A stretch of 55,919 nt of DNA from an uncultured Oscillibacter sp. (lineage in GTDB: Bacteria; Bacillota; Clostridia; Oscillospirales; Oscillospiraceae), in NCBI GenBank assembly GCA_946551795.1, contig CAMNRF010000006.1, positions 1-55,919 on the forward strand. The letters are read 5' to 3'. The notes below the pieces were generated by a model. That model had not been told where the DNA came from. It did not search any database and was given only the letters and a program-made list of their open reading frames with translations. Position 1 is the stretch's first letter. Each line of letters begins with the position of its first letter. Of this stretch, positions 12,740 through 28,969 are shown in pieces. A program made the translations under genes and the position numbers.

Positions 12740-13828
12740 ATGAAATACAACCGCACGTATAACTTCTCCGCAGGTCCGGCCATGATGCCGGAGCCGGTCC
12801 TTGAGGAAATCGCCGCCGAGATGCTGAACTACCGGGGCAGCGGCATGTGCGTCATGGAGATGAGCCACCGCTCCAAGGTGTTTCAGCAGATCCGGGACGA
12901 GGCCGAGGCCGACCTCCGGAAACTCATGGGCATCCCCGACAACTACAAGGTCCTCTTCGTCCAGGGCGGCGGCACGGTGCAGTTCGCCATGGTCCCCATG
13001 AACCTGATGAAAAACGGGACAGCCTGCTACGTGGAGACCGGCGCCTGGTCCAAGAAGGCCATCAACGAGGCGAAGAAGTACGGCGAGGTGAGGATCGCGG
13101 CCTCCTCCGCCGACAAGAACTTCTCCTACATCCCCGACTGCTCCGACCTGGACATTCCGGAGAACACGGACTACGTCTACATCTGCGAGAACGAGACCAT
13201 CAACGGCACCACCTACTTCCACCTGCCCAACACCAAGGGCAAGGTCCTGGTGTCCGACCAGTCCTCCATGTTCCTCTCCCGGCCCTGCGACGTTTCGAAG
13301 TACGGCCTGATCTGGGCCGGCGTGCAGAAGAACGTGGGCCCCGCCGGCATGGCGGTGGTCATCATCCGGGAGGACCTGCTGCGGGACGACCTGCCCAAGT
13401 TTGTGCCCACCTACATGAGCTACAAGACCCACGCCGACAACGACTCCCTGTACAACACCCCCAACTGCTGGGCCATCTACTGCTGCGGCAAGGTCTTCAA
13501 GTATCTGCTGGATAACGGCGGCCTGGAGGCCATGGCGAAGCGGAACGAGGAGAAGGCGAAGATCCTCTACGACTTCCTGGACGCCAGCAGGCTCTTCACC
13601 GGCGCCGTGGTGAAGGAGGACCGCTCCCTCATGAACGTGCCCTTCGTCACCCCCAGCAAGGACCAGGACGCCGACGTGGTGGCCGCTTCCAAGGCGGCGG
13701 GCTTTGACAACCTCAAGGGCCACAAGAGCGTGGGCGGCCTCCGGGCGTCCATCTACAACGCCATGCCCAGAGAGGGCGTGGAGGCCCTGGTGGACTTCCT
13801 CAGGAAGTACGAGGCGGAGCACGCCTGA
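12740..13828 (+). CDS. serC: Phosphoserine aminotransferase
   Basis: A PLP enzyme that transaminates 3-phosphohydroxypyruvate to 3-phosphoserine, using glutamate; second step of serine synthesis and also active in the pyridoxal-5'-phosphate pathway. The product is 362 residues, the normal length. Family landmarks: YNFSAGPAMMPEPVL at the N-terminus, the substrate-binding MEMSHRS, the VQGGGTVQFAMVPMNL segment, and the PLP-lysine region GLIWAGVQKNVGPAGM (Lys in VQKN). GGAGG lies nine bases before the ATG. It is followed 190 bases later by serA in the same direction, so the two form a serine unit. Confidence 0.96.
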   Translation: MKYNRTYNFSAGPAMMPEPVLEEIAAEMLNYRGSGMCVMEMSHRSKVFQQIRDEAEADLRKLMGIPDNYKVLFVQGGGTVQFAMVPMNLMKNGTACYVETGAWSKKAINEAKKYGEVRIAASSADKNFSYIPDCSDLDIPENTDYVYICENETINGTTYFHLPNTKGKVLVSDQSSMFLSRPCDVSKYGLIWAGVQKNVGPAGMAVVIIREDLLRDDLPKFVPTYMSYKTHADNDSLYNTPNCWAIYCCGKVFKYLLDNGGLEAMAKRNEEKAKILYDFLDASRLFTGAVVKEDRSLMNVPFVTPSKDQDADVVAASKAAGFDNLKGHKSVGGLRASIYNAMPREGVEALVDFLRKYEAEHA

Positions 13829-14018
13829 GAATCCGGCTGGAACCGGCGGACGGGACGGCCAGGGGGCCGTCCCCCGCGGGATGTTTCCAACCGCAGGGGC
13901 CGCCGCCCTCGGCGGCCCGTCTCCCCCGGCAGCACGCCCATCCCCCAATGGGCGGTTCACCCTTGCGCTGTCGGTGCCCCTGGGGTGCACCGAGAACGAA
14001 TGAAAGGGGTACTTAATT

Positions 14019-14933
14019 ATGTTAAAGCGAGTTCTGGTCACCGACGGAATGGACGCCTCCGCCGTGGAGAAGCTCCGGGCGGACGGATATGAGGTGGTGG
14101 AGCAGTTCTACGAGCCCGACGCCCTGGGGGCAGCCCTGCGGGACTTTGACGCGGTGATCATCCGCTCCGCCACCAAGATCAAGGAGCCCCAGATCGACGC
14201 CGCCAGGGACAGCCGCCTGAAGCTCATCATCCGGGCCGGCGTGGGCGTGGACAACATCGCCGTGAAGTACGCGGAGAGCGCGGGCATCGCCGTGCGCAAC
14301 ACCCCCCGGGCCTCCTCCAACGCCGTGGCGGAGCTGGCCATGGCGCTGCTGTTCTCCTGCGCCCGGAACATCTCCATCGCAGGCCACACCATGCGGGAGA
14401 ACAAATGGGAGAAGAAGGCCTACTCCAAGGGCTTTGAGCTGGAGGGCAAGACCATGGGCGTCATCGGCTACGGCCGCATCGGGCAGATGGTGGGCAAAAA
14501 GGGCCAGGCCCTGGGCATGAAGGTCCTCTCCACCGTCCACCGGAGCAAGCCCGAGGGCTGCGAGTGCGAGACCATGAAATTCGTCTCCATGGACGAGCTG
14601 CTGACCGGGTCCGACATCATCGTCCTCTGCGCCCCCGGCGGCGACAGGGCCCTGGTGGACGCGGAGTCCCTGGGGAAGATGAAGGACGGCGTGGTGATCA
14701 TCAACGTCTCCCGGGGCAGCAACGTGGACGAGGCCGCCCTCCTGGACGCCCTGAACAGCGGCAAGGTCCGGGCGGCGGGCCTGGACGTGTGGATGAGCGA
14801 GAAGGACCCCAACTGGGCCCTGGCCCAGCATCCCGCCGTCTCCTGCACGCCCCACATCGGCGCGGGCACCAAAGAGGCCCAGAAGCGCATCGGTGCGGAG
14901 CTGGTGGACATCGTGGAGCACTTTGAGACCTGA
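14019..14933 (+). CDS. serA: D-3-phosphoglycerate dehydrogenase, short form
   Basis: Oxidises 3-phosphoglycerate to 3-phosphohydroxypyruvate with NAD, the first step of serine synthesis and the substrate source for SerC upstream. It has 304 residues, so only the catalytic and Rossmann domains are present: IIRAGVGVDNIAV, the Rossmann glycine motif GVIGYGRIGQMVG near 150, the NVSRGSNVDEAAL segment, and the terminal PHIGAGTKEAQ with the catalytic His. There is no ACT domain, so feedback inhibition by serine through that domain is not expected. The start follows GAAAGGGG by several bases. A hairpin terminator follows. The 2-hydroxyacid dehydrogenase family is broad, but the neighbouring serC makes SerA the best call. 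Confidence 0.92.
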   Translation: MLKRVLVTDGMDASAVEKLRADGYEVVEQFYEPDALGAALRDFDAVIIRSATKIKEPQIDAARDSRLKLIIRAGVGVDNIAVKYAESAGIAVRNTPRASSNAVAELAMALLFSCARNISIAGHTMRENKWEKKAYSKGFELEGKTMGVIGYGRIGQMVGKKGQALGMKVLSTVHRSKPEGCECETMKFVSMDELLTGSDIIVLCAPGGDRALVDAESLGKMKDGVVIINVSRGSNVDEAALLDALNSGKVRAAGLDVWMSEKDPNWALAQHPAVSCTPHIGAGTKEAQKRIGAELVDIVEHFET

Positions 14934-15920: not shown

Positions 15921-16916
15921 CTACCGGTCCTCCCGGAAGTAGGCAAGCCCTAAGCTGGCGGGGGGCTGCTTTTCCTTGTTGTTGCGCATGCTGGAGGCAA
16001 TCAGCACGATGACCGTCACCACATAGGGCAGGATCTTGTAGAGCTGGGTGGGGATGAAGGGAATCACCAGCCGGAGGTACAAAATCATCAGCGCGCCGAA
16101 GAGCACGGAGCCCCAGATGGCGGCCAGGGGCCGCCACATGCAGAAGATGACCAGGGCCACCGCCAGCCAGCCCACGCCGCTGAGGCCCTCGTGGTTCCAC
16201 ACGCACCCGGCGATGGTCATGATGTACACCATGCCGCCCACGGCGGAGATGCCGCCGCCGATGACGGTGGACAGGTACTTATACCGCTCCACGTTGATGC
16301 CCGCCGCGTCCGCCGTGGCGGGGGACTCCCCCACAGAGCGGAGGTAGAGGCCCGTCCGGGTGCGGTTCAGGAAGAAGAACATCCCCGCCGCCAGGATCAG
16401 CCCCAGGTAGAAAAACACGCTGTTGCCGAAGAGCACGCCGCCCACCGCGGGGATCTTCTGGAGGAAGGCGGGGAAGGGGGAGTTCTGGAAGAAGCCCTTC
16501 AAAGTGTTGCCGATGGCGATGTAGCCGTTCTCCCGGACCCGCATATACTCGCCGATGAACTGGCCCACGCCGGTGCCGAAGATGGACAGGGCCAGGCCGG
16601 TGACGTTCTGGTTGGCCCGGAGGGTGGTGGTGAGGAAGCTGAAAATCAGCGAGGCAAAGGCCCCCGCCAGAAAGGCGCACAGGATGCCCACCAGCACGGC
16701 GATGAAGCCGTTGGCCCCGGCGCCCGCCGCCTTCTCGTAGTAGAACACGCCGCCCAGGCCCAGGGCGCCGCCCATGAACATGATGCCCTCCACGCCCAGG
16801 TTCAGGTTGCCGGACTTCTCCGTCAGGATCTCCCCCAGGGTGCCGAAGAGCAGGGGCGTCCCGTAGGTGATGGCGGCGATGATCAGGGCCAGGAACAGAC
16901 TCAGGAAATTACTCAT
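15921..16916 (-). CDS. ABC importer permease 2 of a BMP-type nucleoside/purine system (YufQ/PnrE-like)
   Basis: A 331-residue integral membrane permease of the BPD_transp_2 (RbsC/YufQ) family with about nine hydrophobic segments and the family motif GVEGIMFMGGALG near residue 42, plus AAGINVERYKYLSTVIGGGISAVGG in the cytoplasmic loop that contacts the ATPase. It is the last gene of the four-gene importer and its start codon overlaps the stop of permease 1 by 4 bases (ATGA), indicating translational coupling. Permeases of this pair import nucleosides or purine bases; the adjacent purine-type catabolic genes support such a substrate here. Confidence 0.9.
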   Translation of the reverse strand: MSNFLSLFLALIIAAITYGTPLLFGTLGEILTEKSGNLNLGVEGIMFMGGALGLGGVFYYEKAAGAGANGFIAVLVGILCAFLAGAFASLIFSFLTTTLRANQNVTGLALSIFGTGVGQFIGEYMRVRENGYIAIGNTLKGFFQNSPFPAFLQKIPAVGGVLFGNSVFFYLGLILAAGMFFFLNRTRTGLYLRSVGESPATADAAGINVERYKYLSTVIGGGISAVGGMVYIMTIAGCVWNHEGLSGVGWLAVALVIFCMWRPLAAIWGSVLFGALMILYLRLVIPFIPTQLYKILPYVVTVIVLIASSMRNNKEKQPPASLGLAYFREDR

Positions 16917-18004
16917 GACTTCGCCGCCTCCTTATGACTGTTTTTCCGGAAGATCAGCTTGTAGTTGATGAAGAACTCACACCCCAGCATACAGAAGAGG
17001 AGGATGCCGGTGATGATGTCGGAGATGGAGGTGGGCACCGCCATGCGGGTCTGGAGGGTCTCCGCGCCCTTGCTCAAAACCGCCAGCAGCATGGAGATGG
17101 CCACCATGGCGAAGGCGTTGAGCTGGCTGAGCCATGCCACGGTGATGGAGGTGAAGCCCACGCCGCCGGCCACGCCGTCGTACAGGGTGTTGTTGGCGCC
17201 GGAGGCCACGATGAACCCCACAATGCCGCTGATGGCCCCGGAGAGGAACATGGTGCGCATCATCACCCTTCCTACGTTCATGCCGGCGTAGCGGGCGGTG
17301 TTGACGCTGTCGCCGATGACGGCGATCTCATAGCCGTGCTTGGTGTGGTTCATGTACACGTGCATAAAGACCACCAGCACCAGCACGATGATCCAGCCGC
17401 AGTGGACCCCCAGCACCCGGGGAAGACACGCGGCCTTGTCAAACTGGGGGATGATCTGGGAACCCTTGCGGCCCTCCCAGGGGCCGCCCTGGAGCCAGCG
17501 GACCACGCCGATGATGATGTAGTTCATCATCAGGGTAAACAGCGTCTCGTTGGTGTTCCACCTGGCCTTGAAGAAGGCGGGGATCAGCGCCCACACGCCG
17601 CCGGCAACGGCTCCGGCCAGACCCATGACGACCAGCAGCACAGGGGAGGGCAGCCGGTCCGCCCAGAAGAGGGCGAAGTAGCTGGCGGCCACGGCCCCGG
17701 CGGTGATCTGACCCTCGGCGCCGATGTTCCAGAAGCGCATCTTGAAGCAGGGGGCGATGGCCAGGGCGCAGCCAAGCAATGGGACGGCGATTTTGATGGT
17801 CTGCCGGATGGCGCTCTTCTTGCCCAGAGCCCCGGAGATCATGGTGCCGTAGGCGGTGACGGGGCTGGCCCCCGCCAGGCCCATCACCAGGGCCCCCAGC
17901 AGCAGGGCGAAGAGGATGGACCCGAACCGGATGCACCAGACCTTCCAGCCCTCCATGCCGTCCCGCTTGGCAAGACGGATCAGAGGTGTCTTTTTCTCCT
18001 TCAT
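16913..18004 (-). CDS. ABC importer permease 1 of a BMP-type nucleoside/purine system (YufP/PnrD-like)
   Basis: A 363-residue permease of the same superfamily as its partner, with a cytoplasmic N-terminal stretch, an early membrane segment (FGSILFALLLGALVMGLAG), and the family motif FWNIGAEGQITAGAVAA near residue 92, followed by the loop YAGMNVGRVMMRTMFLSGAISG that docks to the ATPase. The two permeases probably form a heterodimer. The gene begins directly after the ATPase stop codon with no gap. Confidence 0.92.
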   Translation of the reverse strand: MKEKKTPLIRLAKRDGMEGWKVWCIRFGSILFALLLGALVMGLAGASPVTAYGTMISGALGKKSAIRQTIKIAVPLLGCALAIAPCFKMRFWNIGAEGQITAGAVAASYFALFWADRLPSPVLLVVMGLAGAVAGGVWALIPAFFKARWNTNETLFTLMMNYIIIGVVRWLQGGPWEGRKGSQIIPQFDKAACLPRVLGVHCGWIIVLVLVVFMHVYMNHTKHGYEIAVIGDSVNTARYAGMNVGRVMMRTMFLSGAISGIVGFIVASGANNTLYDGVAGGVGFTSITVAWLSQLNAFAMVAISMLLAVLSKGAETLQTRMAVPTSISDIITGILLFCMLGCEFFINYKLIFRKNSHKEAAKS

Positions 18005-19549
18005 CTATGCCCCCTCCTTTCCGCCCAGGCGGGTCATCAGCAGTCCGATCTGATCCTTGGTGGCGGCGCGGGCGTCCACCACGCCGCTGACCTGTCCGCC
18101 GCAGAGCACCAGAATGCGGTCGCACAGCTCCAGCAGCACGTCCAGGTCCTCGCCCACGTAGATCACCGCCACGCCCTTCATCTTCTGCTCCGTCAGGAGA
18201 TTGTAAATGGTGTAGGAGGTGTTGATGTCCAGTCCCCGCACGGCGTAGGCGGTCATGAGGACCGAGGGGGCGCTGGCGATCTCCCGGCCCACCAGCACCT
18301 TCTGCACGTTGCCGCCGGACATCCGGCGGACGGGGAACTCAGTGCTGGGGGTCACCACCTCCAGCTCCTTCCAAATCTCCATGGCCAGGGCGTTGGGGTC
18401 CCTGCGGTTGACAAAGACGCCCTTGCCCTTTTTCCAGGAGCGGAGCATCATGTTCCCCGTCATGCCCATGGACCCCACCAGGCCCATGCCCAGCCGGTCC
18501 TCGGGGACGAAGGCCATGGCCACGCCGGCCTTTTTGATCTGCATGGGGGTCCTGCCCACCAGGTTTGAGGGCTCCTTTCCCTCGGGGGTGTAGGTGATCT
18601 CCCCGGCGGCGACGGGATAGAGGCCGGAGATGGCCTCCAGCAGCTCCCGCTGGCCGGAGCCGGCGATGCCGGCCACGCCCAGAATCTCGCCGCCCATGGC
18701 GGTGAAGGAGACGCCGTCCAGCCTCTTCACGCCCTCGCCGTCCAGGCACGTGAGGTTTTTGACCTCCAGCCTCGGCACGGGCGTTTCGTATTGGGGCCGG
18801 TGGATGTTCAGCGTCACGGCGTGGCCCACCATCATGTCCGTCAGGGCCTGGGGGCTGGTCTCCGCGGTGTTGACCGTGCCGATGTATCTGCCCTTGCGCA
18901 GCACCGCCACCTTGTCGGAGAGGGCCATGACCTCGTGGAGCTTGTGGGTGATGATGACGATGGCCTTGCCGTCGTCCCTCATGGCCCGCAGCACGTCGAA
19001 GAGTCTGTCGGTCTCCTGGGGGGTGAGGACGGCGGTGGGCTCGTCCAGGATCAAAATCTCCGCCCCCCGGTAGAGGACCTTGACGATCTCCACCGTCTGC
19101 TTCTGAGACACGGACATATCGTAGATCTTCTGGGCGGGGTCGATGTCAAAGCCGTACCGCTGGCAGATGTCCCGGACCCTGCCCTCGGCGGACTTCATGT
19201 CCAGCCTGCCGCCCTCCTCCAGCCCCAGGACGATGTTCTCCGTGGCGGTGAACACGTCCACCAGCTTATAGTGCTGGTGGATCATGCCGATGCCGTTGGC
19301 GAAGGCGTCCCTGGGAGAGCGGATGGAGACGGGCCGGCCGTTTACGAAGATCTGGCCCTCGTCGGGGAAGTAGATGCCGGAGAGCATATTCATCAGCGTG
19401 GTCTTGCCGCTGCCGTTCTCCCCCAGGAGGGAGAGGATCTCCCCCCGGTTCAGCTTGAGGTCGATGCCGTCATTGGCCACCACCTCGCCGAAGCGTTTGG
19501 TGATGCCCTGAAGTTCAATGGCGCAAACAGTTTTTTCCAAGGCTGTCAT
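18005..19549 (-). CDS. BMP-type ABC importer ATPase with two nucleotide-binding domains (YufO/PnrC-like)
   Basis: A 514-residue duplicated ATPase. Domain 1 has Walker A GENGSGKTT, signature LSVSQKQTVEI and Walker B ILILDEPTAVL; domain 2 has the degenerate Walker A GIAGSGQRE usual for the second half of sugar/nucleoside importers, signature MSGGNVQKVL and a Walker-B region in which the usual EPTRGLD reads AYAVRGLD. The second site is therefore probably not hydrolytic. The ATG at 19549 sits almost on top of its AGAAAGG site; a TTG at 19540 would have better spacing and is a real alternative. It is separated from the binding-protein gene by 313 bases of hairpins. Confidence 0.93.
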   Translation of the reverse strand: MTALEKTVCAIELQGITKRFGEVVANDGIDLKLNRGEILSLLGENGSGKTTLMNMLSGIYFPDEGQIFVNGRPVSIRSPRDAFANGIGMIHQHYKLVDVFTATENIVLGLEEGGRLDMKSAEGRVRDICQRYGFDIDPAQKIYDMSVSQKQTVEIVKVLYRGAEILILDEPTAVLTPQETDRLFDVLRAMRDDGKAIVIITHKLHEVMALSDKVAVLRKGRYIGTVNTAETSPQALTDMMVGHAVTLNIHRPQYETPVPRLEVKNLTCLDGEGVKRLDGVSFTAMGGEILGVAGIAGSGQRELLEAISGLYPVAAGEITYTPEGKEPSNLVGRTPMQIKKAGVAMAFVPEDRLGMGLVGSMGMTGNMMLRSWKKGKGVFVNRRDPNALAMEIWKELEVVTPSTEFPVRRMSGGNVQKVLVGREIASAPSVLMTAYAVRGLDINTSYTIYNLLTEQKMKGVAVIYVGEDLDVLLELCDRILVLCGGQVSGVVDARAATKDQIGLLMTRLGGKEGA

Positions 19550-19604
19550 CCTTTCTGAAAGAGCTCTTGCAGGCAGAGCGCGAAGCGCAGATAAAAGTTT
19601 AGGG

Positions 19605-19668
19605 CCGCCCTTTTCAAAGGGCGGTGGGGTCCAGGGGCAAAGCCCCTGGGCGCGCCGCGCACGGCGCG
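19605..19668. repeat. Triple-hairpin intergenic element
   Basis: Three perfect hairpins stand in tandem: CCGCCCTTT/AAAGGGCGG (19605-19624), CCAGGGGC/GCCCCTGG (19631-19649) and CGCGCCG/CGGCGCG (19651-19668). It lies inside the 313-base gap (19550-19862) between the ATPase and binding-protein genes, where no gene is seen. The regular architecture looks like a dispersed REP-type intergenic repeat; genome-wide copy number cannot be seen here. Confidence 0.6.
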
Positions 19669-19814
19669 AAACTCCAACCCCCGTATAAAAGCAAAGCAAA
19701 AAAACCTCAAGAGAAAGCGCCTTTGCCGTCCCCAGGGCGGCAAACAGCGTCCCCCGCCGACCGTCCGCAGAGGCGGTGGTCAGGATGCAGAGGGCCAGCG
19801 CCCCATAGAAGAAG

Positions 19815-19836
19815 AGGGGCCCCCGCAGGGGCCCCT
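19815..19836 (-). terminator. Attenuator hairpin after the BMP lipoprotein gene
   Basis: A 9-bp stem (AGGGGCCCC and complement, loop CGCA) lies 27 bases downstream of the lipoprotein stop on the minus strand, followed by a moderately T-rich stretch. It may stop most transcripts so that the binding protein outnumbers the membrane subunits. Confidence 0.5.
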
Positions 19837-19862
19837 ATGGAGTTCTTTTTGCCGTTTTGAAA

Positions 19863-21140
19863 TTAGCCGAACGCTTCGTTCAGCCGCTCGATCCCGTCGA
19901 TAGGCAGGTTAAAATACGGAGCGGACTGGAAGTAGGACTCGTGGAAGGCGCCGTCGAACACGGCCTCCTCGGAGTCGGGGGTGAAGTCGCCGTCGGTGTC
20001 CAGGGCGAAGGCGCTCTCCAGCTTCGCGCCCTGGATGGTGAAGGTGCTGGTGTCGAACACCTGCAGCTTGCCGGAGCGGAGCTGCTCCTCCACCTCGGCC
20101 AGCTTCTCAGCGGTGCCGGGGGCGGCGATGGCCTCGTTGAGGTCCGTCATGACCACGGCGCCCTCGTCCATGCCGTGGCACCAGTCCTGATCGAAGCTCT
20201 CACCGTTGGCGACGGCCTCGATGGCGTACTCAAAGTAGGGGGCCCAGTTGATCCGGGTGCCGATGAGGGACGCCTCGGGGGCAACGGAGATCATGTCGTT
20301 GTTGTAGCCCGTGTGATAGACGCCCTTGCTCTGGGCGGTGGTGGCGGGGGTGGTGTTGTCGGAGTGCTGGGAGATCATGACGCAGCCCATGTCCGCCAGG
20401 GCGGAGGCGGCGTTGGCCTCCTCGGTGGCGTCGGACCAGGAGCCCACGAACTGAACCTTCATGGTCACGCTGGGGCACACGCTCCGGGCGCCCAGGAAGT
20501 AGCTGGTGAAACCGGAGACCACCTCGGCGAAGGAGAAGGCGCCAACGTACCCGATGACGGCCTTGTCGGCGGTGATGGTCCCCTCGTCGATCATCTGCTG
20601 GAGCTTCATGCCCGCCACAATGCCGGCCAGGTAACGGCCCTCGTAGATGTTGGCAAAGGCGTTGTGGGTGTTGTCCCGGCCGTCGTTCCAGGAGCCCTGG
20701 TTGGTGCAGGCGATAAACTCCACCTCGGGATAGTCGTCCACCACCTTGAGCATATGGTCCTCAAAGCCGAAGGAGTTGTTGATGATCAGCTGGCAGCCGT
20801 CGTCCGCCAGCTCGATGTTGGCGTCCTCGCAGCTCACATCCTCCTTGATGTTCCACTTGGTGACCCACTTCACGGTGATGCCCTTGGCGGCCAGGGCCTC
20901 GGTGGCGGCCTCCTTGCCGCGGATAAAGTTGTAGGTGTAGCCCTGGTCGTTCTCGTCGCCGATGCAGATCAGGCCCACCTTCACGGTCTTGGTCTCGGGG
21001 GCGTCACTGCCCTGATCGCCGGCGGGCTCAGAGGTGTTGCTGTCGGCGGGCGGGGTGGTCTCACCGCCGCTGCCGCCTCCGCAGGCGGCCAGGCTCAAAA
21101 CCATCACCAGGGACAGCAGGATTGCAAGAAACTTCTTCAT
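19863..21140 (-). CDS. BMP-family (PnrA-like) substrate-binding lipoprotein
   Basis: A 425-residue lipoprotein: signal MKKFLAILLSLVMVLSLAAC with lipobox Cys 20, a Gly/Ser/Thr-rich linker to about residue 50, then a periplasmic-binding fold of the BMP/Med family (VKVGLICIGDENDQGYTYN start of the first lobe; AVIGYVGAFSFAEVVSGFTSYFLGA hinge segment). PnrA-type members bind purine nucleosides; others bind different ligands. It is the first gene of the importer, preceded by AAGGAGG and its own promoter, and is read in the same direction as the two PLP-enzyme genes just upstream. Confidence 0.93.
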   Translation of the reverse strand: MKKFLAILLSLVMVLSLAACGGGSGGETTPPADSNTSEPAGDQGSDAPETKTVKVGLICIGDENDQGYTYNFIRGKEAATEALAAKGITVKWVTKWNIKEDVSCEDANIELADDGCQLIINNSFGFEDHMLKVVDDYPEVEFIACTNQGSWNDGRDNTHNAFANIYEGRYLAGIVAGMKLQQMIDEGTITADKAVIGYVGAFSFAEVVSGFTSYFLGARSVCPSVTMKVQFVGSWSDATEEANAASALADMGCVMISQHSDNTTPATTAQSKGVYHTGYNNDMISVAPEASLIGTRINWAPYFEYAIEAVANGESFDQDWCHGMDEGAVVMTDLNEAIAAPGTAEKLAEVEEQLRSGKLQVFDTSTFTIQGAKLESAFALDTDGDFTPDSEEAVFDGAFHESYFQSAPYFNLPIDGIERLNEAFG

Positions 21141-21208
21141 TCTGGTTTTCCTCCTTAAAAGTAAATGTGGAAAGGAACCAGATGGGGCAGAACGCTCCCA
21201 TCACCACC

Positions 21209-21237
21209 ATCATACAGGAATCGGCTGGAAAATACAA
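21209..21237 (-). promoter_or_regulatory. Promoter of the BMP importer operon
   Basis: On the minus strand, TTGTAT (21237-21232) and TATGAT (21214-21209) are separated by 17 bases, about 70 bases before the lipoprotein ATG. No purine-riboswitch fold was recognised in the short leader. Confidence 0.55.
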
Positions 21238-21311
21238 TCAAATTTTTCTTGTTTTTGGCAGAAATGCGGCGCTTTTTTGCCTCAAATTTCTAAGGTATTA
21301 CCAAAAGCGGA

Positions 21312-22553
21312 TCAATCCGGGACGATCTGCCGCTCGGCGAAGGCCGAGAGCAGGCGGTCCATGTCGGAGGGGATGGAGATGGGCTCACCGCAGGACTTGA
21401 TGGCGTTGGCCACGTCCTTGAGGCCGTTGCCCGTCACCACGCTGACCACGGTGTCGTCTCTCCCGATAACGCCGGATTCGCAGAGCTTCCGCACCCCCGC
21501 CGTGCCGGTGACGCCCGCCGGCTCGCCGAAGACGCCGCAGGTGCGGCCCAGCAGCTTCTGGGCGTCCATAATCTCCTCATCGGAGACGTTGACCACCAGA
21601 CCATTGGACTCCCGAATAGCCAAAAGCGCCTTGTCCGCGTTCCGGGGTACGCCCACGGCGATGGAATCCGCCAGGGTGTTTTCCTCCATGGGACGCCAGT
21701 CCTCCCCGGTCTCAATGGCCCGGTTCAGCGGGCAGCACCCGGCGGCCTGGGCGGAGATCAGGCGGGGAAGGCGGTCGATAAAGCCGATGGCGTACAGGTC
21801 CTTGAGGCCCTTCCAGAGCCCGGCGATGGTGCAGCCGTCGCCCACGGAGATGGCGATGTAGTCCGGCGCCTGCCAGTCCAGCTGCTCCATGATCTCCAGA
21901 GCCACGGTCTTCTTGCCCTCGGAGAGATAGGGGTTGATGGCGGCGTTGCGGTTGTACCAGCCCCACCGGTCAATGGCCTGCTTGGAGAGCTCGAAGGTCT
22001 CCTCGTAGCTGCCCTGGACGGAGACGACGGTGGCGCCGAAGGTCATCAGCTGGGCCACCTTGCCCTTGGGGGCCCGGGAGGGGACAAAGATGTAGGTGGC
22101 AAGGCCCGCCGCCGCGGCGTTGCCCGCCAGGGACGAGGCGGCGTTGCCGGTGGAGGAGCAGGCGATGACCTTCGCCCCGGCCTCCCGGGCCTTGGCCACC
22201 GCCATGGCGCTGGCCCGGTCCTTCAAAGAGGCGGTGGGGTTCTGGCCGTCATCCTTCACCCACAGGCGCCTCAGACCCAGCAGCTCCGCAAGGCGGGGCT
22301 CCTCGTACAGGGGGGACCAGCCCACCCGCAGGGGCGTGGGCTCCGTGCTGTCCTCGATGGGCAGCAGCTCCCGGTAGCGCCACATGGACCGCTCCGGCCG
22401 GGCGGCCAGCTTCTCCCTGGTCAACCGCGTCTTGATGTACTCATAGTCGTAGACGATGTCCAGGATGCCGCCGCATTCGCAGGTGGTCAGGTCCGGCGTC
22501 GCCGGGTAGGTTCTGCCGCAACGAACACATTTTCCATATTTTACATGTTTCAT
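21312..22553 (-). CDS. Threonine-synthase-like PLP enzyme with N-terminal zinc ribbon
   Basis: A 413-residue fold-type-II PLP enzyme of the threonine synthase/dehydratase family. An N-terminal zinc ribbon is formed by Cys 9, 12, 25 and 27; the PLP lysine is Lys 111 in NPTASLKDRA; the Asn-loop SSTGNAASSLAG follows near 150 and the phosphate-binding Gly loop SVGDGCTIAG near 250. Canonical threonine synthase makes threonine from O-phosphohomoserine, but no thrA/thrB partner is nearby; instead it lies in a unit with another PLP enzyme and a YheO-like regulator opposite ygeY-ygeW. A catabolic amino-acid lyase role is therefore possible. The start at 22553 follows GGAGGAG. Confidence 0.82.
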   Translation of the reverse strand: MKHVKYGKCVRCGRTYPATPDLTTCECGGILDIVYDYEYIKTRLTREKLAARPERSMWRYRELLPIEDSTEPTPLRVGWSPLYEEPRLAELLGLRRLWVKDDGQNPTASLKDRASAMAVAKAREAGAKVIACSSTGNAASSLAGNAAAAGLATYIFVPSRAPKGKVAQLMTFGATVVSVQGSYEETFELSKQAIDRWGWYNRNAAINPYLSEGKKTVALEIMEQLDWQAPDYIAISVGDGCTIAGLWKGLKDLYAIGFIDRLPRLISAQAAGCCPLNRAIETGEDWRPMEENTLADSIAVGVPRNADKALLAIRESNGLVVNVSDEEIMDAQKLLGRTCGVFGEPAGVTGTAGVRKLCESGVIGRDDTVVSVVTGNGLKDVANAIKSCGEPISIPSDMDRLLSAFAERQIVPD

Positions 22554-22585
22554 GTTGTCTCCTCCGTCAAAATTTGGGGAGCTGT

Positions 22586-22632
22586 ATTCCTTCGGAATCC
22601 GGCCCACGGGGGCGGGATGGGGGCATCCCGCC
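22586..22632. other. Hairpin-rich gap between the two PLP-enzyme genes
   Basis: Two perfect hairpins lie in the 139-base gap: ATTCC/GGAAT near 22586-22598 and GGCGGGATG/CATCCCGCC at 22611-22632 (loop GGGG). They may adjust relative expression of the two genes; no gene is present in the gap. Confidence 0.45.
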
Positions 22633-22692
22633 GCGGGCGGGGACGGGGGATACCGCGCCTCGGGCGCGGGACGGGAGTTGCCCGGCCGCGCC

Positions 22693-24168
22693 TTACAGGC
22701 TCTTCAAAACTCCACTCTCCTCATTAAACGCGTTAATGAGTTCATCCAACTCCTTCGCCTGGGCGTGAACAGCATCCCAAGTCCCCTCGGTGTCATACCA
22801 AAGGGCGTTCAGGTCGTGCATATCCTTCCCCTGCTGCTCCACCCAGGTGTAGTATTTCAGGTGGTGCACCCGCTTGCGGTCGGCGTAGGTCATCTCAATC
22901 AGGTTGTCGGTCTTGAGCCCCAGCATGTGCAGGTTGTGGTCCAGCTCCGCCGCCTGGGCGGTGTAAGCCCCGTACTGCTCGTTCAGCTCGGCGATGCGGC
23001 TGCCGTACATCACGGCGCTGTCGGTGAGGACCGTGCCCACCACGTCCCGCTCCGTGAGCTCGTAGTACTTGGCCATCTTGATGCAGCAAAGGACGTTGGC
23101 GATGCCGCTGATGCCAAGCCACGTCAGCTTCTCCACCAGCTCGCCGTCCAGGCCCAGGACCTCCCTGAGGTACTTCTGCCCCTCGGGGGTGTTGAACAGG
23201 CGCAGCAGGCGCTGGCTGTCCTCGTCGTCAATGGCGATGGCCATGTCGCTGTTTTTCACATTGTGAATCCAGGGGATGTGCTTGTCGCCGATGCCCTCGA
23301 TCCGGTGGCCGCCGAAGCCGTTGTTCAGGATGGTGGGGCACTGGAGGGCCTCGCCCACCGCCAGCTTCAGGTGGGGATACAGCTCCTTGAGGCGGTCGCC
23401 CGCGCTCATGGTGCCGGCGGAGCCGGAGGTGAAGGCGGCGGCGGCGAAACGGTCGCCGGGGCGCTTGACGGCCTCGAACACATCCGCCAGGGCGTTGCCG
23501 GTGACGTTGTAGTGCCACAGGGGATTGCCCATCTCCTCAAACTGGTTGAAGATCATGTACTGGGGGTCCCGTTTCAGCTCGTTGGTCTTGTCGAAAATCT
23601 CCTTGACGTTGGACTCACAGCCGGGGGTGGCGATGACCTCGGCGCCGATCTCGTGGAGCCAGTCGAACCGCTCCTGGCTCATCTCCGCCGGGAGGATGGC
23701 CACGCCCTGGGCCCCCAGCAGCCGGGAGTTGAAGGCGCCGCCCCGGCAGTAGTTGCCGGTGGAGGGCCACACGGCCTTGTGGATGTCCACGTCAAACTGG
23801 CCCGTCACCAGGCGGGGGGCCAGGCACCCGAAGGAGGCCCCCACCTTGTGGCAGCCCGTGGGGAACCACTTGCCCACCATGGCGATGATCCGGCAGGGCA
23901 CGCCGGTGAGGGCGGGGGGCAGCTCGATGTAGTTGGGCACGGCCTGGAAGAGGCCGCCGGACTCTCTGGCCTCGTTCTTCCAGGTGATGCGGAACAGGTT
24001 CATGGGGTCCACGTCCCAGAGGCCCAGGGTCTTGAGGCGGCTCTGCACCTTCTCCGGGATGGTCTCCGGGTGCTGCATCTGGGCGATGGTGGGGATGACG
24101 ATGCCGTTCTCCTTTGCCTTTTTGATGTTGTGGGCCAGGCCCTGCTTGTTGACGGAAAGGTCGATCAT
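22693..24168 (-). CDS. Fold-type-II PLP-dependent enzyme, function unknown
   Basis: A 491-residue protein of the tryptophan-synthase-beta superfamily. The PLP lysine is Lys 108 in WFPTGCHKVGASFG, a Gly/Ser phosphate loop FTSGSAGTMSAG lies near 245-256, and the C-terminal 100 residues are a helical extension absent from threonine dehydratases. It does not show the sequence of the 2,3-diaminopropionate ammonia-lyase YgeX. Its ATG overlaps the regulator's stop codon (ATGA), so it is controlled and translated together with that regulator, and it faces the ygeY-ygeW-arcC operon. By position it could be a non-orthologous lyase of the same pathway; the substrate is not readable. Confidence 0.85.
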   Translation of the reverse strand: MIDLSVNKQGLAHNIKKAKENGIVIPTIAQMQHPETIPEKVQSRLKTLGLWDVDPMNLFRITWKNEARESGGLFQAVPNYIELPPALTGVPCRIIAMVGKWFPTGCHKVGASFGCLAPRLVTGQFDVDIHKAVWPSTGNYCRGGAFNSRLLGAQGVAILPAEMSQERFDWLHEIGAEVIATPGCESNVKEIFDKTNELKRDPQYMIFNQFEEMGNPLWHYNVTGNALADVFEAVKRPGDRFAAAAFTSGSAGTMSAGDRLKELYPHLKLAVGEALQCPTILNNGFGGHRIEGIGDKHIPWIHNVKNSDMAIAIDDEDSQRLLRLFNTPEGQKYLREVLGLDGELVEKLTWLGISGIANVLCCIKMAKYYELTERDVVGTVLTDSAVMYGSRIAELNEQYGAYTAQAAELDHNLHMLGLKTDNLIEMTYADRKRVHHLKYYTWVEQQGKDMHDLNALWYDTEGTWDAVHAQAKELDELINAFNEESGVLKSL

Positions 24169-24812
24169 AATGGTTTGTCCTCCTCCAGTTTTGTGTCGAT
24201 ATAGGAATACAAGGTGTACTTAGAGATCCCGAAGTATTTGGCGACCTTGTCGCCGGACTTGGTGACCAGGAACGCGCCGTTCTGGTTCAGGAATTGGATG
24301 GCCCGGACCTTGTCGTCCTTGTTCATCAGCGCCACGGGCTTGCCCACCAGCGCCACGGACTGCTGGATCAGCTCCTCCAGCAGGTCGTTGATGTTGACGA
24401 TCTTCTCCGGCTCGGAGGGCTGGGGCCCCTCGGTGGAGACCAGGCCGTGGAGGGCGCTCTCCACCATCAAGAGGGCGGAGATGTCGTAGTTGATGGCCAG
24501 GATCGCCGAGACCTTCCCCTTGCTGTTGCGGATGTAGACCGTGGAGGATTTCAGGATCTTGCCGTCCGGGGTCTTCATCAGGTAGGACAGGTGGTCCTTG
24601 GGCTCGGGGTCGTTGGTCTGCAGCTGCTCCATCACCACGTGGGACGCGCCGTCCCCCACCTTCCGCCCGGAGACGTGGCCGTTGATGATGGCCACGATGC
24701 TGTGGTCCGGGTTCCGGCTCAGGTCGTGGATCACCACCTCGCAGCTGCTGCCGAACTGGGCCGCGATGCCCGCCGCCACCTGCTTGAGCAGTTCCAGTTT
24801 TCCGGTTTCTAT
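24165..24812 (-). CDS. YheO-like PAS/HTH transcriptional regulator, possible ATA start
   Basis: A YheO-family regulator: an N-terminal PAS-like domain (CEVVIHDLSRNPDHSIVAI...; ILAINYDISALL) and a C-terminal helix-turn-helix (GDKVAKYFGISKYTLYSYI) close to the end. About 215 residues with the start proposed here. The only standard start in the frame is a GTG at 24779, which lies inside the conserved LLKQVAAGIAAQFG helix and has no good ribosome site; an in-frame TAG closes the frame at about 24860. An ATA at 24812 lies seven bases after AAGAGGGG and restores the expected N-terminus. It is the first gene of the minus-strand unit and probably senses a pathway metabolite for both divergent operons. 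Confidence 0.8.
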   Translation of the reverse strand: METGKLELLKQVAAGIAAQFGSSCEVVIHDLSRNPDHSIVAIINGHVSGRKVGDGASHVVMEQLQTNDPEPKDHLSYLMKTPDGKILKSSTVYIRNSKGKVSAILAINYDISALLMVESALHGLVSTEGPQPSEPEKIVNINDLLEELIQQSVALVGKPVALMNKDDKVRAIQFLNQNGAFLVTKSGDKVAKYFGISKYTLYSYIDTKLEEDKPL

Positions 24813-24869
24813 GAAATATCCCCTCTTTCCTATGGCAAAGTTTATATAAACGCTCTATTACACTTCAAT

Positions 24870-24965
24870 ATAATATCACACTTTTTGTATAAAGCAACAC
24901 TTTTTCAAAAAAATTTTTTGGTTTTCAAAAATTTTGTTTGACAACAGGGAATCTTGTGATATGAT
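24870..24965. promoter_or_regulatory. Divergent AT-rich control region of the purine-type cluster
   Basis: On the plus strand TTGACA (24938-24943) and TATGAT (24960-24965), 16-base spacer, drive ygeY. On the minus strand TTGCTT (24897-24892) and TATTAT (24875-24870) could drive the regulator. Between them lie two direct-repeat pairs: ACACTTTTT at 24878 and 24897 (19 apart) and TTTTCAAAA at 24902 and 24922 (20 apart), candidate binding sites for the YheO-like regulator. The AT-richness is striking against the GC-rich surroundings. Confidence 0.65.
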
Positions 24966-25021
24966 AAAGCTGTAAGCGACAGAGAGGAAGCTGTAAAAAT
25001 AATTTTATGGAGGGCTGTATC

Positions 25022-26434
25022 ATGGATTTTGAAGCGATCAAAGCGGCGGCGGAAGGCTACAAGGCCGAGATGTCCCGGTTCCTGCGGGACATGATCTCCC
25101 ATCCCAGCGAGAGCTGCGAGGAGAAGGACGTGGTGATGTGCATCAAGGCCGAGATGGAGAAGCTGGGCTTTGACAAGGTGGAGATCGACGGCCTGGGCAA
25201 CGTCATCGGCTGGATGGGCCAGGGCGAGAAGATCATCGCCATCGACTCCCACATCGACACCGTGGGCATCGGCAACATCAACAATTGGGAGTCCGACCCC
25301 TACACAGGCTTCGAGACCGAGGACATCATCTACGGCCGGGGCGGCAGCGACCAGGAGGGCGGCATGGCCTCCGCCGTGTACGGCGCCAGGATCATGAGGG
25401 ATATGGGCCTCATTCCCGAGGGCTACAAGATCATGGTGGTGGGCTCCGTGCAGGAGGAGGACTGCGACGGCATGTGCTGGCAGTACATCGTCAACAAGTA
25501 CTTCGCGGGTCCCGAGGACGCCCGCAGCAAGATCGAGTTCGTCATCTCCACCGAGCCCACCGACGGCGGCATCTACCGGGGCCACCGGGGCCGCATGGAG
25601 ATCCGGGTGGACGTGAAGGGCGTCAGCTGCCACGGCTCCGCCCCGGAGCGGGGCGACAACGCCATCTACAAGATGGCCGACATCCTCCAGGACGTCCGGG
25701 CCCTGAACGAGAACGGCGACGGCCCCTCCAACAAGGTCAAGGGCCTTGTGAAGATGCTCAACGAGGAGTTCAACCCCGAGCACTACGAGGACGCCCGCTT
25801 CCTGGGCCGGGGCACCTGCACCACCAGCCAGATCTTCTACACCTCCCCCAGCCGCTGCGCCGTGGCGGACAGCTGCGCCATCTCCATCGACCGCCGCATG
25901 ACCGCCGGCGAGACCTGGGACTCCTGCCTGGAGGAGATCCGGCAGCTGCCCAGTGTGCAGAAGTACGGCGAGGACGTGAAGGTCAGCATGTACATGTACG
26001 ACCGTCCCGCCTGGACCGGCACCGTGTATGAGACCGAGTGCTTCTTCCCCACCTGGATCAACAAGGAGAGCGCCGCCCACGTCCAGGCCCTGGTGGACGC
26101 CCACCGCGCCCTGTGGGGCGAGGAGCGCATCGGCCACGCCGACGCCGATCCCAAGAAGGACGCCATGCACCTGCGCGCCGGCCGTCCCCTGACGGACAAG
26201 TGGACCTTCTCCACCAACTGTGTCTCCATCCAGGGGCGGTACGGCATCCCCTGCGTGGGCTTCGGCCCCGGCGCGGAGAGCCAGGCCCACGCCCCCAACG
26301 AGATCACCTGGAAGCAGGACCTGGTGACCTGCGCCGCCCTGTACGCCGCCGCCATTCCCCTCTACAAGCCGGAGAACAGAACCGCCGACGTGACGGAGTT
26401 CCGCCAGAGCCTGACGGACAACGACATCCAGTAA
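25022..26434 (+). CDS. ygeY: YgeY, M20-family peptidase-like deacylase/hydrolase of the purine-type cluster
   Basis: A 470-residue metallohydrolase of the M20 family, co-aligning with E. coli YgeY over its length (shared blocks FLRDM, PSESC, DEEDCDG-type [49 protein letters not shown]). Metal ligands are visible at His 77 and Asp 79 (DSHIDTVG), with EED and STEPTD acids and a C-terminal AHAPNE His. E. coli ygeY lies in the cluster for anaerobic purine/urate breakdown, where this hydrolase is thought to act on a ureido/amino-acid intermediate. The ATG at 25022 follows GGAGGG by seven bases; the in-frame ATG 15 bases earlier overlaps that ribosome site. Confidence 0.93.
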
Positions 26435-26462
26435 CCGTCTGAAACATAGAAGGGTGATTTTT

Positions 26463-26726
26463 ATGAAGGGCATGCGGCTTTGGAATCTGGTCTCCTGGGC
26501 GGTGGTGCTGTTCCTCTTCGTGCGGATGGCGCTGGCCGGAGCCCTTTCCCCCACCTCCATGAACTACTGGCACTATGGGGAGCTGCGGCTGATTTTCCTG
26601 CTGTTCCTCATGCACGCTATATCGTTCACGCTGATTCTGGGCGTCCTGAAAAAACTGGTGAACGAGCCGCCCGTCCCGCCTGCCCCAAAAGCTGAAGACG
26701 ACCCGTATGACGGCCTGGGGACCTGA
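26463..26726 (+). CDS. Small two-helix membrane protein between ygeY and ygeW
   Basis: An 87-residue protein with two hydrophobic segments (about 8-26 and 42-62) and a Pro-rich acidic tail (EPPVPPAPKAEDDP). It is 28 bases after ygeY and 34 before ygeW in the same direction, so it is co-transcribed. The ATG at 26463 follows GAAGGGTG; an in-frame GTG nine bases upstream overlaps that site. No family is recognised. Its position suggests a membrane-associated accessory of the pathway or importer, but this is only context. Confidence 0.7.
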   Translation: MKGMRLWNLVSWAVVLFLFVRMALAGALSPTSMNYWHYGELRLIFLLFLMHAISFTLILGVLKKLVNEPPVPPAPKAEDDPYDGLGT

Positions 26727-26760
26727 CCCCGCAAATAAAAACAATAAGGAGATATTCCAT

Positions 26761-27951
26761 ATGTCTAAGACCATCGAACTGGCGCAGCACCTGGAGAAGC
26801 TGCACACCAACAACATGTACAAGTCCGACTTCTACTGGACCTGGGACAAGACCGACGAGGAGCTGGACGCCATCTTCACCGTAGCCGACGCCCTGCGGGA
26901 CCTGCGGGAGCGGAACAAGTCCACCCGGATCTTCGACTCGGGCCTGGGCATCTCCATCTTCCGGGACAACTCCACCCGCACCCGCTTCTCCTTCGCCTCC
27001 GCCTGCAACCTGCTGGGCCTCACCGTCCAGGACCTGGACGAGAAGAAATCCCAGATCGCCCACGGCGAAACCGTCCGGGAGACCGCCAACATGGTCTCCT
27101 TCATGGCCGACGTCATCGGCATCCGGGACGATATGTTCATCGGCGAGGGCCACAAGTACCAGAAGACCTTCATGGACGCCGTGAAGGAGGGCTACCGGGA
27201 CGGCATCCTGGAGCAGCAGCCCACCCTGGTGAACCTCCAGTGCGACGTGGACCACCCCACTCAGGCCATGGCGGATATGCTGCACATCATCCACCAGTTC
27301 GGCGGCGTGGAGAACCTCAAGGGCAAGAAGCTGGCCATGACCTGGGCCTACTCCCCCAGCTACGGCAAGCCCCTGTCCGTTCCCCAGGGCGTCATCGGCC
27401 TCATGACCCGCTTCGGCATGGATGTGGTGCTGGCCCATCCCGAGGGCTATGACGTGATGCCCGAGGTGGAGGAGATCGCCCGCAAGAACGCCCAGGCCAC
27501 CGGCGGCAGCTACAGGAAGGTCGCCACCATGGAGGAGGCCTTCGACGGCGCCGACATCGTCTATCCCAAGAGCTGGGCCCCCTTCGCCGCCATGGAGGAG
27601 CGCACGAAGCTCTACCAGGCCGGCGACCAGAAGGGCATTGACGAGCTGGAGAAGAAGCTCCTGGCCCAGAACGCCAATTTCAAGAACTGGTCCTGCACCG
27701 AGGAGATGATGAAGCGCACGAAGGACGGCAAGGCGCTGTATCTCCACTGCCTGCCCGCCGACATCACCGGCCTCAGCTGCCCCGAGGGCGAGGTGGACAA
27801 CTCCGTGTTCGACCGGTACCTGGTGCCCCTGTACAAGGAGGCCAGCTTCAAGCCCTATATCATCGCCGCCATGATCATGATGAGCAAGGTAAAGGACCCC
27901 GTGTCCGCGCTGATGGCCATGGACGCCGGGAAGGCCCGAAAGGCCTTTTAA
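26761..27951 (+). CDS. ygeW: Knotted carbamoyltransferase YgeW
   Basis: A 396-residue transcarbamylase of the knotted YgeW family. Carbamoyl-phosphate binding motif STRT at residues 71-74 (FRDNSTRTRFSF), HPTQ in CDVDHPTQAMAD, and HCLPADITG near the C-terminus; long stretches such as KSQIAHGETVRETANM, TWAYSPSYGKPLSVPQG and EGYD are shared with E. coli YgeW. In the purine/urate cluster it is thought to run in the catabolic direction, transferring a carbamoyl group to phosphate so that carbamoyl phosphate can be used by the carbamate kinase encoded next. The ribosome site AAGGAG lies eight bases before the ATG. Confidence 0.95.
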   Translation: MSKTIELAQHLEKLHTNNMYKSDFYWTWDKTDEELDAIFTVADALRDLRERNKSTRIFDSGLGISIFRDNSTRTRFSFASACNLLGLTVQDLDEKKSQIAHGETVRETANMVSFMADVIGIRDDMFIGEGHKYQKTFMDAVKEGYRDGILEQQPTLVNLQCDVDHPTQAMADMLHIIHQFGGVENLKGKKLAMTWAYSPSYGKPLSVPQGVIGLMTRFGMDVVLAHPEGYDVMPEVEEIARKNAQATGGSYRKVATMEEAFDGADIVYPKSWAPFAAMEERTKLYQAGDQKGIDELEKKLLAQNANFKNWSCTEEMMKRTKDGKALYLHCLPADITGLSCPEGEVDNSVFDRYLVPLYKEASFKPYIIAAMIMMSKVKDPVSALMAMDAGKARKAF

Positions 27952-28027
27952 GGGGACTCCGTCCCCCTCTCCCCGCGCCGCGGGCGCCGGGAACCACTGA
28001 TTATTTTGGGAAGAGGTTGCACCAGTC

Positions 28028-28969
28028 ATGGGTAAACGTATCGTCATCGCCCTGGGCGGCAACGCCCTGGGCAAGAACCTGCCGGAGCAGATGATCGCGG
28101 TCAAGCAGACCGCCAGGGCCATTGTCGACCTGATCGAGCAGGGCCACCAGGTGGTCATCGCCCACGGCAACGGCCCCCAGGTGGGCATGATCCAAAACGC
28201 AATGACCGAGCTGACCCGCTCCGACCCGGAGAAGTACATCCCCTGCCCGCTGTCCGTGTGCGTGGCCATGAGCCAGGGCTATATCGGCTACGATCTCCAG
28301 AACGCCCTGCGGGAGGAGCTGCTGGACCGGGGAATCAGCAAGGGCGTGGCCACCGTGCTCACCCAGGTGGAGGTGGACCCCCAGGACCCCGCCTTCCAGA
28401 ATCCCACCAAGCCCATCGGCGCCTTCATGACGAAGGAGGAGGCCGAGACATTGGTGCGGGAGCGGGACTACCAGGTGGTGGAGGACGCCGGCCGGGGCTG
28501 GCGCCGGGTGGTGGCCTCCCCGATGCCCGTCTCCATCGTGGAGATCGAGTCCATCCGGGACATGGTGGACGCCGGTCTCGTGGTGGTGGCCTGCGGCGGC
28601 GGCGGAATCCCCGTCTTCAAGACCGGGGGGCACCACCTCAAGGGCGCGGCGGCGGTCATCGACAAGGACTTCGCCAGCGAGAAGCTGGCCGAGCAGCTGA
28701 ACGCGGACACCCTCATCATCCTCACCGCCGTGGAGAAGGTGGCCGTCAATTTCGGAAAGCCGGACCAGACGTGGCTGGACCACCTGACTCCGGAGGAGGC
28801 CCGGCGGTACGCCGCCGAGGGCCAGTTCGCCCCGGGCAGCATGTTGCCCAAGGTGGAGGCGGCGGTGAAGTTCGCCGAGTCCAAGCCCGGCCGCACGGCC
28901 CTCATCACCCTGCTGGAGAAGGCCAAGGCCGGCATCGCCGGAGAGACAGGCACCGCCGTCTCCCGGTAA
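28028..28969 (+). CDS. arcC: Carbamate kinase
   Basis: Converts carbamoyl phosphate plus ADP to ATP, CO2 and ammonia: the energy-yielding last step of several catabolic routes. The product is 313 residues, the normal length. Motifs: RIVIALGGNALG at the N-terminus, HGNGPQVG near 55, VASPMP and VVACGGGGIPV in the middle, DKDFASEKLAEQLNADTLIILT (kinase core) and the FAPGSMLPKVEAA substrate segment. Position directly after ygeW makes it the equivalent of E. coli YqeA rather than an arginine-deiminase-linked ArcC: no arcA/arcB is present. A hairpin terminator follows at about 29089. Confidence 0.95.
   Translation: MGKRIVIALGGNALGKNLPEQMIAVKQTARAIVDLIEQGHQVVIAHGNGPQVGMIQNAMTELTRSDPEKYIPCPLSVCVAMSQGYIGYDLQNALREELLDRGISKGVATVLTQVEVDPQDPAFQNPTKPIGAFMTKEEAETLVRERDYQVVEDAGRGWRRVVASPMPVSIVEIESIRDMVDAGLVVVACGGGGIPVFKTGGHHLKGAAAVIDKDFASEKLAEQLNADTLIILTAVEKVAVNFGKPDQTWLDHLTPEEARRYAAEGQFAPGSMLPKVEAAVKFAESKPGRTALITLLEKAKAGIAGETGTAVSR

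Follow-up and report, generated by a model that had tools for sequence, protein, structure and literature searches.

A divergent locus of an uncultured Oscillibacter with genes for the probable lower half of reductive urate breakdown, a candidate nucleobase importer and two pyridoxal phosphate-type enzymes

The reductive pathway of urate breakdown has been shown biochemically with enzymes of Escherichia coli and Clostridioides difficile (PMC12507026). In that work, YgeW (with phosphate) and YgeY strip both ureido groups of 2,3-diureidopropionate and YgeX yields pyruvate; the order of ureido-group removal is disputed (PMC12990295). The E. coli cluster comprises XdhD-YgfM, YgfK, SsnA, HyuA, YgeW, YqeA, YgeY and YgeX (PMC12507026), and its ygeV has been listed as a sigma-54-dependent activator (PMC2276186). 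For Clostridiales, one listing places genes of the urate set under DioR, a sigma-54 regulator (PMC6615313). Here we describe positions 15921–28969 of contig CAMNRF010000006.1 (C6; 55,919 nucleotides) from an uncultured Oscillibacter sp., the whole contig being referred to as the window. The draft genome (GCA_946551795.1) amounts to 2.42 Mb in 127 contigs and is 85.7% complete.

As in the E. coli cluster, YgeW, YgeY and a carbamate kinase lie together, and the remaining enzyme families are also present in this genome (PMC12507026). The draft assembly departs from the compact E. coli-type arrangement in that the pathway genes are spread over at least five contig groups; further differences are a YheO-type regulator, a sigma-70-like promoter, an ATP-binding cassette (ABC) importer of nucleobase type and an extra, conserved pair of pyridoxal phosphate (PLP) enzymes. 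The DioR-linked ygeW-ygfK-ssnA-ygeY genes (PMC6615313) bring the same enzyme families under one regulator; that listing is of a sigma-54 system, whereas the window has a YheO-type regulator. We put at roughly 80% the probability that this locus is the lower half of urate breakdown joined to a nucleobase importer and to a PLP pair that probably acts on a urate-derived C3 amino acid.

The ten proteins of the region were scanned against NCBIfam and Pfam models. The plus strand encodes YgeY, a 470 amino acid M20 hydrolase (25022–26434, refined start at 25022; TIGR03526, 591.6 bits against a cut-off of 321.5), the 396 amino acid carbamoyltransferase YgeW (26761–27951, refined start at 26761; TIGR03316, 765.3 against 500) and a carbamate kinase in the ArcC/YqeA role (28028–28969; TIGR00746, 389.7 against 358.25). 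With scores well over the family cut-offs, the identities given to these three genes in a preliminary description of this DNA hold. The YgeY match is the only one in the genome, as is the YgeW match over cut-off, and both are inside the window. The divergent partners named in that description, all on the minus strand, were also confirmed by Pfam. They are a YheO-type regulator (24165–24812; PAS_6, 127.7 bits, and the helix-turn-helix (HTH) domain HTH_22, 74.5 bits), two PLP proteins matching PALP (PF00291; 246.8 and 44.2 bits, cut-off 35), and a complete importer. The latter consists of a Bmp-family binding lipoprotein (19863–21140; PF02608, 92.1 bits against 24.1), a 514 amino acid double ATPase (18005–19549, refined start at 19549; ABC_tran in two stretches, 138.3 bits) and two BPD_transp_2 permeases (permease 1, 16913–18004, 106.9 bits; permease 2, 15921–16916, 110 bits, with a 4-base overlap with the next gene).

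Every enzyme family of the reductive urate pathway, as published, is represented in the genome, the exact role of the xanthine dehydrogenase (XDH) being assigned by family only. Own-genome searches revealed ygfK (1042 bits, C80, with the gene end on C113, cut by the contig end), ssnA (539 bits, C80), a D-hydantoinase (555 bits, C31), a selenium-dependent XDH (1319 bits, C41; TIGR03311) and ygeX in two pieces (474 and 147 bits, C104 and C74), each of which alone falls below the TIGR03528 cut-off of 532. Both ygfK and ygeX are broken at contig ends that share exactly 55 bases, so the splits probably stem from the assembly. The models for ygfK, ssnA, ygeX, hydantoinase and XDH gave no match on C6 at E-values up to 0.001. 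The preliminary description had noted that these genes are missing from the window and had suggested looking for ssnA, ygfK, hydantoinase and xdh elsewhere in the genome; all these families are found, on other contigs. Its picture of a rearranged module is supported as to a divergent purine/urate cluster with an importer, and corrected as to a stand-alone pathway, the window carrying the lower half and other contigs the rest. An incomplete pathway was rejected because every enzyme family was recovered. Next to the selenium-dependent XDH on C41 (L219) are another XdhA-XdhB-XdhC set and a homolog of MocA (35% identity).

Extrapolating from the E. coli and C. difficile enzymes studied by others, the following scheme is suggested. 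The ABC importer, with its nucleobase-type binding protein, would take up a purine base, most likely guanine or a similar oxopurine, which XDH, YgfK, SsnA and the hydantoinase, encoded on other contigs, would convert through urate and yanthine to 2,3-diureidopropionate. YgeW would phosphorolyse one ureido group to carbamoyl phosphate, from which carbamate kinase would produce ATP, and YgeY would take off the other to leave 2,3-diaminopropionate. The CysK-like and ThrC-like proteins, as the two PLP proteins are called below, probably act on this compound or on its monoureido precursor, either alongside YgeX or in its place, and the YheO-type regulator probably governs ygeY-ygeW-arcC through an element of A/T blocks. 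What the analysis establishes is the identity and co-location of the genes, the content of the genome and the phyletic association; the ligand of the importer, the role of the PLP pair and the action of the regulator are inferred.

Loci carry L numbers; from one scan of named genomes 80 were retained, the best among 594 confirmed relatives, and of these the closest by its CysK-like gene, at 95% identity, is an uncultured Oscillibacter (L080). The flanks of the 80 loci contain ThrC-like (58), YgeY (35), YgeW (32), regulator (32), carbamate kinase (27), Bmp (19), SsnA (12) and YgeX (7) genes, counts that are lower bounds because many contigs end early. SsnA, YgeW and the CysK-like protein occur together in nine of the 80 (L092, L096, L101, L102, L105, L107, L123, L140 and L146); L157 would be a tenth but for a YgeW match of only 34% identity. 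Some relatives carry ssnA and ygfK no more than 20 kb away from their copy of this cluster. Purine as the substrate, put forward in the preliminary description, is supported by this proximity and by the complete family set in the genome. Most neighbour counts were taken from tblastn, since in GC-rich loci antisense open reading frames (ORFs) interfered with clustering by longest non-overlapping ORF. Some organisms may be represented in both genome collections, and thinning was applied only to the control-region gaps described below. In L091 a same-strand run encodes YgfK, selenium-dependent XDH, YgeX, YgeY, YgeW, ArcC, the CysK-like protein, SerC, SerA, a further protein that we take to be DUF1015-like, and a second YgeX-like protein.

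Could the importer and cluster instead serve another ureido compound or an amino acid, urate being incidental? Amino acid catabolism would fit a YheO/DauR-type regulator (YheO-type regulators presumably resemble DauR), and the importer also matches B6-transporter models of NCBIfam, with scores under their cut-offs. We regard this as very improbable given the upper-pathway families in the genome, the relatives in which ssnA and ygfK lie close to this cluster, and a binding protein whose predicted pocket is of nucleobase type.

Urate breakdown with nucleobase uptake, the reading preferred here, agrees with the closest solved relatives of the binding protein, 3s99 (1e-44) and AtzT (4.1e-36); the six other chains listed score 1.5e-4 or weaker. 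The Brucella protein 3s99 was modelled with adenine and AtzT holds guanine with a dissociation constant of about 110 nM (PMC6834077), while nucleosides are given as ligands of PnrA and BmpD (PMC7093131). The AtzT contact residues were mapped by hand on the binding-protein alignment. Tyr45, Ser97, Glu165 and Trp194 are kept, so that the Tyr/Trp sandwich and the Ser and Glu contacts described for AtzT and 3s99 also occur in the window protein, whereas Asn218 and Asn220 of AtzT are replaced by His and Asp, as in 3s99 (PMC6834077). The pocket residues Tyr68, Ser123, Glu206, Trp235, His259 and Asp261 are invariant in 31/31 sequences (that of the window plus 30 from the loci). The importer had been described as PnrA-type; its membership of the Bmp family (PF02608) is upheld, and a nucleoside-type importer is rejected by the closest solved relatives and the pocket residues.

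A guanine-deaminase-type gene adjoins that of the binding protein in seven loci (L104, L105, L107, L108, L110, L114 and L123), a count that rests on the ORF-based clustering; its representative scores 351.5 bits, just under the cut-off of 375.4. Together with the relatives and pocket of the binding protein, this gene makes guanine uptake the leading guess, urate itself being another candidate ligand. Three genus-mates have the importer next to carbamate kinase, with a binding protein only 43–45% identical to that of the window; importers have thus been exchanged or moved.

YgeY and the regulator are divergent in 52 of 147 loci. For analysis of the gaps between them, L109 and L110 (more than 600 bases) were left out and 51 gaps were then thinned to 46. 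Of the 46 gaps, 37 contain AAAAATTTT and 33 contain GTTTGACA; the corresponding means over 50 shuffles are 2.06 and 0.28. In the window, two A/T blocks (24906–24920 and 24926–24936), which form a probable operator (24906–24936; no strand), lead into a promoter-like site of ygeY on the plus strand (24938–24965; TTGACA, 16 nucleotides, TATGAT) with 11 of 12 consensus bases. A promoter scan of the region returned four sites against a shuffle mean of 2.1, a count that is not significant in itself; the TTTGACA-type box is conserved in relatives, and it is through this conservation only that the ygeY promoter is credible. The operator pattern matches 27 of the 147 loci, every time before YgeY. Because the pattern was written from the same sites the number of matches is partly circular, the exclusive position less so. 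The preliminary description had proposed one divergent regulon: the divergent layout is as stated, and the single regulon is borne out only in part, the conserved element lying before ygeY alone. In L016 a different regulator (3816–4850; HTH and WYL-like, by eye) immediately precedes ssnA-ygfK, which may mean that control of the upper arm is separate.

The regulator gene probably starts on an ATA codon (24810–24812), a GTG further down (24777–24779) being possible. At the aligned position other loci have ATA (L080, L177 and L180), ACG (L082 and L098) or ATC (L103 and L196), and among further relatives some have CTG or TTG and others ATG, e.g. L101. With such weak starts, little of the regulator may be made. 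Between ygeY and ygeW there is a small ORF (26463–26726) of 87 residues, membrane-like in character, with no relative in 100 loci at an E-value of 1e-10.

Neither PLP enzyme of the window matches the YgeX model (TIGR03528), whose own-genome matches at E-values up to 0.001 are confined to C104 and C74; the amino-acid lyase step that had been ascribed to these proteins is therefore unproven. The 491 amino acid CysK-like protein (22693–24168, minus strand) has a best cysteine synthase score of 82.8 against a cut-off of 350.95, among the cut-offs shown. It retains a PSTGN substrate loop, a QF motif and a GSAGT phosphate loop, all cysteine-synthase-like, and Lys108 is its probable PLP lysine. It possesses GIGDKH where two aligned enzymes have GLGAGF and one GIGAGF, and within the family (n=144) D295 occurs in 144, K296 in 142 and H297 in 143 members. 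The 50 best Foldseek matches of its structure model are CysK- and cystathionine beta-synthase-type enzymes. No geometry was taken from this model, since its confidence is medium (predicted local distance difference test 78, predicted template modelling score 0.82) and weak at the active-site loops. The protein thus has the substrate loop, QF motif and core fold in common with cysteine synthase and cystathionine beta-synthase and differs from them in about 180 extra residues, in GIGDKH and in scores below the family cut-offs.

The 413 amino acid ThrC-like protein (21312–22553, minus strand, refined start at 22553) has four conserved N-terminal cysteines and exceeds two threonine synthase cut-offs (TIGR00260, 220.2 against 167.1; NF006050, 317.7 against 303). 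All 109 family members carry Ala, Leu and Asp where two solved threonine synthases have Thr, Arg and Asn, residues that we take to contact phosphohomoserine. From the cysteine-synthase-like loops and fold of the one protein and the altered residues of the other, beta-chemistry on a C3 amino acid is likely.

The distribution of the pair was followed in 250 genomes of the family, with a tally by genus over 106 genera. A genome counted as a carrier of the CysK-like gene if its match reached 56% identity (67 genomes), a threshold that drops 166 genomes with weak matches only (26–34% where listed); the YgeX set takes in all genomes at E-values up to 1e-40 (n=60, 45 over cut-off), some lower scorers of which may represent another subfamily. 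On this basis ygeW has 69 carriers and ssnA 74. The CysK-like gene and ssnA occur together in 60 genomes, the former alone in 7, the latter alone in 14 and neither in 169; for YgeX and YgeW the numbers are 39 with both, 21 with YgeX only, 30 with YgeW only and 160 with neither. Counted by genus, CysK-like/ssnA gives 30 with both, 4 and 8 with one, and 64 with neither, and YgeX/ssnA 23, 11 and 15, and 57. In this draw the CysK-like gene tracks the pathway more closely than YgeX. A ThrC-like gene lies near it in 52 of the 67 stretches. Among the 68 genomes with both ygeW and ssnA, 31 carry CysK-like and YgeX genes, 26 the CysK-like gene only, 7 YgeX only and 4 neither, these four being 68–87% complete. 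The two as strict alternatives were rejected, given the 31 genomes with both. One genus (g11) includes two genomes with YgeX only and one with the CysK-like gene only.

Several observations weigh against the reading adopted here. The XDH was found with TIGR03311, and as this model has no match over cut-off in E. coli, the enzyme for the first reduction, of urate to yanthine, is identified at family level only. The operator pattern is absent from ten other stretches of the same genome. Kinship among the genomes is handled by the genus tally only, mutual exclusion of the CysK-like gene and YgeX is not significant (Fisher p 0.74 for all 68 genomes, 0.065 for those at least 90% complete), and six CysK-like carriers from five genera have neither ygeW nor ssnA. 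Some CysK-ThrC pairs are also situated among housekeeping-looking genes, which, like the threonine synthase scores of the ThrC-like protein, would suit an ordinary threonine synthase and cysteine synthase lying beside a urate cluster by chance. The CysK-like protein is too far under the cysteine synthase cut-offs shown, the Ala, Leu and Asp substitutions too constant and the association with ssnA too close for chance neighbours to be other than quite unlikely. A literature search (titles and starts of abstracts, few subscription papers, and without the 2023 gut urate-cluster papers of the Dodd and Rey laboratories) revealed no link of the pair to the urate pathway. One proteomics study among the papers listed contains both 'ygeW' and 'threonine synthase' (PMC3686733).

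In nine of 100 loci serC lies in the same stretch as the CysK-like gene (L080, L087, L090, L091, L093, L096, L125, L133 and L149); seven of the eight other than L080 are titled Lachnospiraceae, and serA is present in six of the nine. The distance from serC is less than 100 bases to the CysK-like match in L087, L090, L091 and L093, and less than 150 bases to the ThrC-like match in L096 and L133. Next to the importer, positions 12740–14933 of the window presumably encode SerC and SerA homologs, and likewise in L080. As serC is missing from all 67 stretches that come from the family draw, the link is lineage-bound. These genes, along with the cysteine-synthase-like fold and substrate loops, would fit a CysK-like protein that is an O-phosphoserine-dependent cysteine or selenium-related enzyme outside urate breakdown, an unlikely explanation in view of the 67 stretches and of a presence that tracks ssnA and ygeW.

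If the pair belongs to urate breakdown, as we prefer, a more specific role may be sketched, tentatively and with more doubt than confidence: an unrecognised end module that would make serine or phosphoserine from diaminopropionate, or from the monoureido compound before it, by PLP-dependent beta-replacement, in place of pyruvate formation by YgeX. Were this true, then with serC and serA in the operon carbon would enter glycolysis as 3-phosphoglycerate with one phosphate bond saved, and the route would be completed by this module in those 26 genomes, out of 68 with the pathway, where a CysK-like gene but no YgeX was detected.

According to a figure legend (PMC12507026, Fig. 3g), PF00291 served to mark YgeX in the published analysis of gene neighbourhoods. 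Since PF00291 matches both PLP enzymes of the window, the pair could have been counted there as YgeX. The anaerobic degradation of urate in gut bacteria is relevant to gout, and the importer and regulator of this locus are candidates for uptake and control. If the pair does finish the route in genomes without YgeX, the annotation of the pathway would change, as would the carbon and energy balance of urate use in the gut.

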